A model generated the notes under the pieces. That model was given only the letters and a program-made list of their open reading frames with translations. It was not told where the DNA came from and ran no database searches. The position numbers and the translations under genes are program-made. Of a stretch of DNA of 64,000 nt, positions 52,287-63,987 are shown in pieces (the first letter of the stretch is position 1; each line of letters starts with the position of its first letter). The DNA comes from Tetrahymena elliotti 4EA (taxonomy: Eukaryota; Ciliophora; Oligohymenophorea; Hymenostomatida; Tetrahymenidae), in the NCBI GenBank assembly GCA_000231825.2, contig JH720303.1:1610918-1674917 (forward strand), in the 5' to 3' direction.

Positions 52287-52646
52287 ATGGGCTGATGCTT
52301 TAGTTGCCAGAATAGCAACAACAACAATTGTAATTCTTACCAGCAGGTTAAAGTAAATAAAAACAAGGTTTTTATTGTTGAAATAGAATATTGGTAAGAA
52401 GGTGGATATGAAGTTGATGCTTCTTAAAAAATAAATTACATAAAATAAGTGTTCCCTTTTATTCAATATTAACTAACTCCTGTTTCTCATGAAAAGACTT
52501 TAAATATCTACTTGAGTGATGTTAATAATTCCTAAAAAAGGTTTTTATTTTATTCTCGCTAGTAGCATAAGCTTTGGGATGGAAACCAAATGACGACCTA
52601 ATAGTATCTAAACTACTTAAAAGAATTTGTAGATTCTAATTTTTGA
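52287..52646 (+). CDS. Probable selenoprotein, Sec at codon 3, Rdx/SelW-like
   Basis: ATG 52287-52289 is the only ATG after an in-frame TGA at 52266. Codon 3 is TGA (52293-52295), and the frame then stays open for 116 codons to TGA 52644. The start would read Met-Gly-Sec-Cys-Phe-Ser-Cys. A SECIS-like element 52 nt downstream supports reading the TGA as selenocysteine. The body, 'VFIVEIEYWQEGGYEVDAS' followed by 'INYIKQVFPFIQY', has the strand-loop-helix pattern of Rdx proteins (SelW, MIEN1), whose motif is Y-C-x-x-U/C-G-Y. Here the redox positions read W..G. Met-Gly plus adjacent Sec/Cys resembles an N-myristoylation/S-acylation signal. Alternatives are a spliced N-terminus from an unseen exon, or a decayed gene. 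Total 119 residues. Confidence 0.65.
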
Positions 52647-52697
52647 ATAATATTTAAGAAAGTGAATTCAATACATGTTAAAAATGAAGATAAAGTT

Positions 52698-52773
52698 TAA
52701 AAAGACTCCAATGAAGGTGAGTGTTTAAAAACAAGCAAGATACAATCCTGAAAAAAAAAAAATAGTCTTTTTA
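52698..52773 (+). promoter_or_regulatory. SECIS element (selenocysteine insertion)
   Basis: Lower stem 52698-52707 pairs with 52764-52773 (10 bp, TAAAAAGACT / AGTCTTTTTA). The core has ATGA at 52711-52714 opposite TGA at 52749-52751, the non-Watson-Crick quartet. The upper stem includes GG/CC (716-717/747-748), TG with CA, and TGTTT/AAGCA (722-726/733-737). The apical loop is AAAAAC, giving the unpaired A pair 12 nt after ATGA. This is the consensus layout and spacing of eukaryotic SECIS elements. The upper stem has internal mismatches, which families tolerate. Confidence 0.75.
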
Positions 52774-54485
52774 TTCTTTTTCTTCAAAAAGATGTGTGAA
52801 ATGATTGTTATAAATTAAAATAAAATGTCAATTTTTATATTAATAGCATATTAGATGTTTGAAATTAATAATTAAAAATCAATACTTAGTTATATTTTAT
52901 TTGCACAATATTTTTCTTAACAAATGACAAATTGGTTTTCATTCATATATCTTTTCATCAAAAAGCATGTTGCTATTTTAATTTGATGCATTTTTAGTGA
53001 TATTTAATTTGTTCTAAAACATTTCAAAATTTTCTTATTAAAATGCTTACCTTTGATCAAGTTAGTTTTCTTAAAAAAACAATGATTTTTTAATGTTTTA
53101 AAATGATAAAGGTTTTGTATAAATTCTTCTTCTTTTTTCATATTTTGTTTCTGAAATATTTTGAGTAATAAATAAAATTATTCACAAATCATACATAATA
53201 AGAAAAATAAATAAAATTTTTAATTCATTTTTTTATTTTCTTTTCATAATAAATTTCGGCCATAAAAATTAAGGATTCCAATAGTGAATAATCATTAATT
53301 AGAAAATTAAAAATATTTTAGCTTTGACTAGAAATATTCTCATTATTTTATTCATTATGAATATGAATTATTTTAAAAGAGTATCCAATTTATTTATTTA
53401 TTTGAAATGAATGATAAAAAGTAATTAACTATTTTAAACTATAAAAAATATAAATCTTTATCTATCCTCTTAGATAGTTTTACCTCAAAATAAAGTTTGA
53501 AGTTTGTATTTAAGAAAGTATTTATAAGATTTTTTAATTAAAGTATACTTTGAAATTGTAATTGAGAAAAAAGAGTTTTATATGTTTTATTTTTGTAGAT
53601 GTGGATATTTTTAAATTAATCATCAATTTATCAAATTATTTATTCTTTATTGATGCTATAAGAAAATAAAATTATGAGGCATGAATATTAATTTTCCATA
53701 TTTATTTCAAATGTTTTATTTTTGTTTAATTGCCACCAATTTAATTTGATAATACTATGTAACGATAAGATCTTATTTATCATTTGAAAGAAAGTATTAT
53801 GAATTTTAAAAATAAAAAATATCTTTTTTTTGTGAGAACTCCAATAACATAATTTTATCTCAAATTAAAATTTTTTTAGAGGGCTTTTATTTGTTAATTC
53901 GATTTCCACTCAAATCTTAACTTGTAAAAATGAATAATTTAGATTTTTAAATAAATCCTCATTTTTCATAAAAATTTTTTATCTTGATAGATCTTAATAA
54001 ATAAAATTTAAAATAGTGAAAGATAATAAATATTTTATGGTCTTTACTCAAGTGATTAGTAGATTGAAAATAAATATCAATAAAAATATACTAAAATTCA
54101 TTTAATTCAGTTTTATTATGGTATTTTAAAGGCTTTTTTGTTTGTTTTTTTAATTTTTAAATATTTTGTTTAGAAAAAATGCCATTTTAGATAAGCTATT
54201 ATGTTTTATTTATAATTATCTCGCTTTATTAATGCTATTGTGATTAACCACATATCTGATTGACATGAATTAAAAATTATGGAAAATATTGATGAATTAT
54301 GATTTATTTGAGATAGAACTATTTTATATCTTAATTCTTTAAAACTAATTCTTAAATATTTTGAAAAGATTCTTAATTAAAATTTATGTATAAAAAGTAG
54401 ATAAGAAATATCATTTTGTAATTCTTATTAATTCAATTTTAATAAATTAAGTAGAAAAAACCAAATAAGCAAATTAACAAATAAA
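52774..54485. other. Intergenic
   Basis: AT-rich sequence between the SECIS and the dynamin-like gene. No gene or RNA recognised. Confidence 0.6.
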
Positions 54486-63223: not shown

Positions 63224-63916
63224 TTAAGCTGAATTATTTTTACAATATGTTATAAGAAGATAAATATTTGCCATTATTGTTAATTAGTAGTATTTACATA
63301 AATTATAAATATTTTTTTTGTGTTGCAATCATGATTAATAAATATGGTAATTCTATCCAATTTTTCATCCTCAAAAACTAACTTTATTGCTTTTATGTTT
63401 TCAGTTATTCAAAGATTGTTTGTGTACTTTAGTTAAACATCTAGCTTGAACAAACTTTTTGAGTTTAAATTAAAAAGATGAATAAGGATGTGTTCATTAT
63501 TAAAATAATCAACTGAAGCTTATTGCGCAAAATAAGCGAACAAATTTTTATACAAATGATAAAAAATTAGAAAATTTTTAGAAGTTTTTTAATTATTCTT
63601 TATTTCATTATAAGTAAAAAGGAACTTTTATTTGTTAAAAAAGCAAATTTTTAACTTTTCAAACAAATTTTAATTACACTTAGTACACACATAAAAATTT
63701 ATGAGTGAATTTCAATTGTTTTAGAAGGAAGATTCTAAATTATTATTAATATATATGCAGTTTTATTTTACTTATTTTAAATTTTAATTCCATTAATTAA
63801 TCAACCAATCATAGAAATAAAAACAATTTTTAGAATTTTATTTTGCATGAATGAATTTTTTTTTAATTTTCTTCTGTTTATTATTTTAGCATTTTATTTA
63901 ATATTAAAAAATATTT
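63224..63916. other. Convergent intergenic region
   Basis: Peroxiredoxin 3' flank up to the tRNA on the opposite strand. AT-rich, nothing else recognised. Confidence 0.6.
63906..63911 (-). terminator. RNA polymerase III T-run terminator
   Basis: Six Ts on the minus strand, 5 nt after the tRNA 3' end. Confidence 0.75.
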
Positions 63917-63987
63917 AGCAGAGAGAGGTTTCGATCCTCCGACCTTTGAGTTATGAGCCCAACGCGATTCCACTTCGCCACCCTGCT
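63917..63987 (-). tRNA. tRNA-Met(CAT), initiator type
   Basis: A 71-nt cloverleaf on the minus strand. Acceptor stem AGCAGGG/CTCTGCT begins with the A1-U72 pair typical of eukaryotic initiators. D arm GCGAAGTGGAATCGC; anticodon stem TTGGG/CTCAA with loop CTCATAA, i.e. anticodon CAT; T arm with ATCGAAA instead of TTCGAAT. The A at T-loop position 1 and the A1-U72 pair mark initiator rather than elongator tRNA-Met. No intron; CCA is not encoded. One T-stem pair is G-U. Confidence 0.95.

Follow-up and report, generated by a model that had tools for sequence, protein, structure and literature searches.

The window, by which we mean the whole 64,000-nt stretch of Tetrahymena elliotti DNA analysed here, carries on its forward strand a short coding frame at 52287-52646, followed by a SECIS-like hairpin at 52698-52773. 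Translated with the ciliate code and TGA as Sec, the frame gives 119 residues (MGUCFSCQNSNNNNCNSYQQVKVNKNKVFIVEIEYWQEGGYEVDASQKINYIKQVFPFIQYQLTPVSHEKTLNIYLSDVNNSQKRFLFYSRQQHKLWDGNQMTTQQYLNYLKEFVDSNF) and ends with a TGA stop at 52644-52646. TGA occurs in it only twice, as this final stop and as codon 3 (52293-52295), the putative Sec codon, and the 116 codons that follow codon 3 include nine TAA or TAG. Because the next Met after residue 1 is residue 102, the ATG at 52287 is the sole useful start of the unspliced frame, and our re-translation of 52287-52646 agrees with the sequence-only reading of this locus, in which a lone usable ATG, GGC and TGA were followed by 116 open codons. A tRNA gene is found on the reverse strand at 63916-63987, just before the end of the contig, which is also the end of the window.

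The codon score of the candidate frame is 25.5 bits, the best of the six frames (18.0, 9.7, 6.4, 13.2 and 14.5 bits in the other five), and was equalled by 2 of 2000 base shuffles, under a rough codon model whose training set was the long ORFs of the window, some overlapping one another. The GC content rises at the ATG, being 16% in the 300 nt upstream, 28% in the frame and 20% in the 300 nt downstream. An open frame alone proves nothing, because the two strands of the window hold 353 frames of 100 codons or more bounded by TGA on both sides; the total codon score places the candidate 65th among them, the per-codon score 40th. When an ATG was required to be followed by a TGA within 10 codons and then by at least 100 open codons, 42 arrangements were found on both strands of the window, and a strict SECIS-like hairpin lay within 350 nt of one of them, the candidate. 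In the 90-Mb genome, ATG-GGN-TGA-TGY occurs at 25 sites, three of which open into at least 100 codons, and one of these three, again the candidate, has a SECIS-like hairpin; neither of the two such long frames among the other 24 MGUC starts has one, and two of the short-frame sites have a weak and distant hairpin each. The combination of frame and hairpin stands out from the chance expectation, whereas the length of the frame by itself does not.

The genome is equipped for Sec. Rfam detects tRNA-Sec at 62.5 bits, above its cut-off, with UCA in the anticodon loop, whereas ARAGORN reports no tRNA at the same locus. In T. thermophila, an eEFSec and an SBP2-like gene are named in the part of PMC7409322 consulted. 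We found nine selenoprotein loci of known types and used their SECIS elements as yardsticks; TGA is visible at the Sec site or tail in eight of them, namely two GPx (L020, L019), SelT (L021), two SelW (L025, L026), two TrxR (L044, L045) and SPS2 (L048). The ninth, TrxR L042, was accepted by its hairpin rather than by a TGA, because that hairpin is nearly identical to the one of a T. thermophila TrxR, and the SPS2 hairpin, missed by the scan, was chosen by eye. By visual comparison, the six T. thermophila elements in the accessible portion of PMC2612030 have their counterparts in six of the nine hairpins; that portion gives six putative T. thermophila selenoproteins, none of them SelW or SelT. 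The SelT gene L021 and the SelW genes L025 and L026, all with SECIS, are of types outside that set as far as this portion goes. The SelW genes of the present genome share 66 of 69 and 64 of 70 residues with two SelW fragments annotated in T. malaccensis. The SECIS of the Sec-GPx L020 (L020:2226) resembles that of T. thermophila GPx TTHERM_00141160 in the same portion of PMC2612030, and a Sec-GPx without detectable SECIS, TtGPx12, is mentioned in the consulted part of PMC7409322. The tails of two TrxR genes hold at least two TGA codons at short distance from each other (TCUAU at L044:1900-1915; TSCUAUAAU on the reverse strand in L045), so that their real stops are not obvious.

In the candidate hairpin, a 10-bp lower stem (52698-52707 with 52764-52773) carries ATGA (52711-52714) opposite TGA (52749-52751), and the 11-nt loop (52727-52737) begins with AAAAA. 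Folding of 52697-52775 gave this structure at -11.7 kcal/mol (z -2.03), a value matched by 8 of 200 shuffles, in agreement with the SECIS-type lower stem, core and properly spaced A-rich loop that had been described from the letters. The paired upper stem described with them holds in part: a helix is present, but it is interrupted by a 3x3 mismatch, the two 11-nt arms between ATGA and TGA pair at 8 of 11 positions, and its energy of -2.3 kcal/mol is weaker than in any of the eight known elements measured, which span -3.4 to -13.0. The core lies 65 nt past the stop, against 42, 61, 70, 84, 88 and 115 nt in six known elements (L019, L042 and L045 excluded), and the core-to-AAA distance is 11 nt, as in several known elements.

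How often such a hairpin arises by chance depends on the rule. Under a loose energy rule the candidate is the best of 25 matches in the window (-12.2; next -10.3), and in the 165,093 bases of window plus loci ten of 75 rows rank above it, six of them known elements (five distinct) and four not, which puts it 11th; because of this rank and of a rate of 6.3-8.6 as-good matches per Mb in Markov sequence, the loose rule is not specific. A stricter symmetric rule is passed by seven of the nine known elements (L044 and L048 fail) and by the Rdx gene L023, and in the window the candidate is its only forward-strand match, besides one weak match on the reverse strand. Markov sequence of window composition (91.45 Mb) and of flank composition (129.2 Mb) contained 6 and 21 strict matches, respectively, with an equally strong lower stem, 302 and 960 with a lower stem at least as stable as -5, and 1942 and 8070 with any lower stem, rates that flatter the candidate because the pairing limit was chosen so that it just passes. 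For the 42 arrangements (14.7 kb of 3' flank) the corresponding expectations are 0.001-0.002, 0.05-0.11 and 0.3-0.9 hairpins. The case rests on the lower stem of the hairpin and on the protein similarity described below.

Profile models were also used. A model trained on 15 known elements, from which the candidate was left out, placed it at the top of the window (22.8 bits; next 21.3), the known training elements scoring 29.5-47.1 bits. A second model, trained without both SelW elements and the SelT element, recovered a single one of these three, at 27.8 bits; the candidate was absent from its matches, as were the other two. Rfam SECIS_1 did not report the candidate hairpin. Of the known elements it recovered three out of nine in one search and, when short stretches were searched, two out of four others. 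Because they miss some known elements, these models are too insensitive to decide on the candidate. By SECIS criteria, the core, the spacing and the lower stem fit, and the silence of Rfam and the second model, which extends to some known elements, neither confirms nor excludes it.

The protein similarity, together with the loss of the redox site described here, is new relative to the sequence-only reading. Residues about 17-119 (52335-52643) look like a diverged selenoprotein W of the Rdx fold, judging from alignment and modelling, the best match in this genome being the Met-Gly-starting SelW L026 (BLASTP E 5.7e-5). Similarity to four of five relatives tried was reached by none of 2000 shuffles, and that to the fifth, SelW L025, was no better than chance. 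With Rdx HMMs three shuffles outscored the candidate, which came 4th of 2000 scored rows, and with the SelW-subset HMM it was 62nd. An AlphaFold model built on the SelW alignment has a pLDDT of 73.7 (below 50 for residues 1-22), and SelW-type PDB entries are its top structural matches; AlphaFold on the single sequence with Foldseek gave no confident fold. Pfam gave no Rdx (PF10262) match at E up to 10. We therefore file the candidate as SelW-like rather than as an orthodox PF10262 member, because the similarity and the modelled fold are present and the Pfam match and CxxU site are absent. A match to Pfam PH_11 (E 0.019, below the cut-off) and weak PDB sequence matches pointed to a PH domain, a reading that was rejected, the SelW signal over the same residues being stronger.

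The Rdx-family CxxC/CxxU site between strand 1 and helix 1 is absent from the candidate: the end of the first strand reads IEY-WQEG-GY, as against IEY-CGSU-GY in L026, so that Trp36-Gln-Glu-Gly39 (52392-52403) takes the place of this site. All Cys and the predicted Sec are at residues 3, 4, 7 and 15, and the folded part has none. In the Rdx gene at L027:1430-1525 an intron splits the first Cys codon of the CxxC site (TG^T), where the window gene reads TGG TAA GAA. A donor-like TG^GTAAGAAGG at that place was considered and rejected, and WQEG was taken as coding, because no acceptor keeping both the frame and a SelW-like C-terminus was found by eye. A search for paralogues of the candidate in the genome gave a chance-level match only (E 1.8), and the environmental SelW-like protein P0026 as query, in a search run without a positive control, gave no match in the genome.

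The start of the candidate, Met-Gly-Sec-Cys-Phe-Ser-Cys (52287-52307) if codon 3 is read as Sec, is of acylation type. N-myristoylation follows a pattern of a Met-Gly start with Ser or Thr at residue 6, and MGUCFS, with Gly2 and Ser6, fits it, the modification itself being predicted. Met-Gly starts are found in the same genome in SelW L026 (MGANIT) and in the GPx genes L019 (MGACFF; reverse strand) and L020 (MGSLLY), where they are possible myristoylation signals, and also in the environmental SelW-like proteins P0006 (MGICGS) and P0026 (MGGSYQ). Because such starts recur among relatives, a membrane-tethered SelW lineage is a reasonable background, and the candidate would be a member of it with selenium shifted into the anchor. 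In the Met-Gly relatives L026, P0006 and P0026, which are not orthologues of the candidate, position 3 is Ala, Ile or Gly and never Sec or Cys; P0006 has Cys4. The protein search yielded no orthologue. Several environmental SelW proteins (P0007-P0018) have a C-terminal Cys-x-Ile-Leu-like tail that may signal prenylation, another route to a membrane-bound SelW. Among the open-access papers listed, judged by titles and the beginnings of abstracts, none deals with a myristoylated selenoprotein or with Sec as the third residue.

Taken together, the locus is, in our fairly confident judgement, the gene of a small selenoprotein. It would be a diverged paralogue of the Met-Gly SelW L026 that has lost the CxxU site and receives Sec at codon 3 through the 3'-UTR hairpin, giving an acylated redox tail. 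The proposal of Sec at residue 3 in the sequence-only reading has thus been strengthened in its selenoprotein part, by tRNA-Sec, the nine loci, the SECIS spacing and the SelW kinship; the residue-3 position is still deduced from the frame, and the Met-Gly relatives have Ile, Ala or Gly there. As we infer the process, the ribosome would initiate at the ATG at 52287 and read GGC as Gly at codon 2, the hairpin would bring tRNA-Sec to the TGA of codon 3, and translation would terminate at 52644-52646. Removal of Met would probably be followed by myristoylation of Gly2 and palmitoylation at Cys4 or Cys7. The product would be a thioredoxin-like SelW fold with WQEG and no CxxU, serving as a binding module, and a flexible Gly-Sec-Cys-Phe-Ser-Cys tail, from which the selenol would act at the membrane, in the simplest form as a Sec3-Cys4 or Sec3-Cys7 selenenylsulfide switch. 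More tentatively, and as something we consider possible rather than probable, a Tetrahymena SelW lineage may have relocated Sec from the dead site of the fold to residue 3 of a myristoylated and palmitoylated tail, decoded at the second elongation step, where a membrane-tethered selenol would cycle with Cys4 or Cys7 or be itself acylated. In the part of PMC3737529 consulted, Euplotes SelW incorporated Sec with higher efficiency at position 85 than at position 9, its natural place, and a low Sec yield at codon 3 would therefore be no surprise.

The weightiest caveat is that a SECIS can be present without Sec at the expected site. The Rdx gene L023 (L023:1416-1900) has Cys in its site (IKYCVSCGS) and a strong SECIS 71 nt past its first TGA, which scored 38.4 bits in the second model although outside its training, and it is the only locus above 20 bits among 14 loci of Cys-type and other homologues searched with that model; this SECIS may be a relic, or the first TGA may encode a C-terminal Sec (QENKQ-U-LIKKEKSKK). 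The consulted part of PMC7409322 likewise describes nine ciliate GPx genes that lack Sec but carry a SECIS, as well as Sec genes in which SECISearch3 finds none. If SECIS relics persist, the hairpin of the window could be one, its start replaced by an upstream exon that is spliced past the TGA, for example after the AG at 52302-52303, so that codon 3 is never read, or the hairpin could be there by chance. A short upstream exon has some room, because 20-codon windows upstream reach 4.5 bits, near the candidate mean of 4.7 (maximum 11.4). We nevertheless regard this explanation as unlikely: the 20 nt before that AG, the one acceptor examined, have 45% GC, against 5-15% at four intron ends identified by eye, the 300 nt upstream have the low GC content given above, and the Met-Gly start is like those of L026, P0006 and P0026.

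MGCC is a common acylation start, and a recent TGC-to-TGA change in an ancestral Met-Gly-Cys-Cys start, or an assembly error, could have produced the same letters beside a relic or chance hairpin, in keeping with the relatives, in which position 3 is not Sec. Such a pseudogene or error is in our view improbable, because the remaining frame is open and has the best codon score of the six, because no annotated Cys form was found in a protein database that includes T. malaccensis, and because a relic hairpin would need to have outlasted the wide divergence from L026. That no gene exists, and an open frame lies by chance next to a chance hairpin, appears very improbable; the number of long frames in the window, the ranks of the candidate among them, and the 0.3-0.9 hairpins expected when no lower stem is demanded would suit it, but the SelW similarity lies in exactly the frame of the candidate, few shuffles reach its codon score, the GC boundary coincides with the ATG and the lower stem is strong.

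Sec is usually located in the active site of a fold, and selenium at residue 3 of a membrane-anchor-type tail would be out of the ordinary. If the favoured reading, a SelW-derived gene with Sec at codon 3, is true, Sec lies outside the fold in a lipid-anchor motif, meaning that the SECIS system can shift selenium chemistry to a new protein site, and the gene tests how soon after initiation the decoding of UGA as Sec becomes possible. More such genes may be hidden, because ordinary annotation ends them after two codons.

Among known systems, SelW L026 (MGANITIPED...IEYCGSUGY) is like the candidate in its Met-Gly start, in the NKN..F.V.IEY...GY stretch, in the modelled SelW fold and in a 3'-UTR SECIS, located 70 nt past the stop as compared with 65 nt; unlike the candidate, which has WQEG there and TGA at codon 3, L026 has Cys and Sec in the fold. 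The environmental P0006 (MGICGS...) and P0026 (MGGSYQ...) share an acylation-type Met-Gly start before a SelW-like domain, and P0006 shares also Cys4 and Ser6, but their fold sites are intact (EYCGGWG and EYCQAWG, the W being probably TGA read by another code) and position 3 is Ile or Gly. The Sec of Euplotes crassus SelW presumably occupies the normal CxxU site. According to the part of PMC3737529 consulted, that protein resembles the candidate as a ciliate SelW with Sec near the N-terminus, and differs in that its Sec is at position 9, not 3. MIEN1 (PDB 2ljk) is unlike the candidate in being prenylated at the C-terminus, with its redox motif in the fold and no N-terminal Sec.
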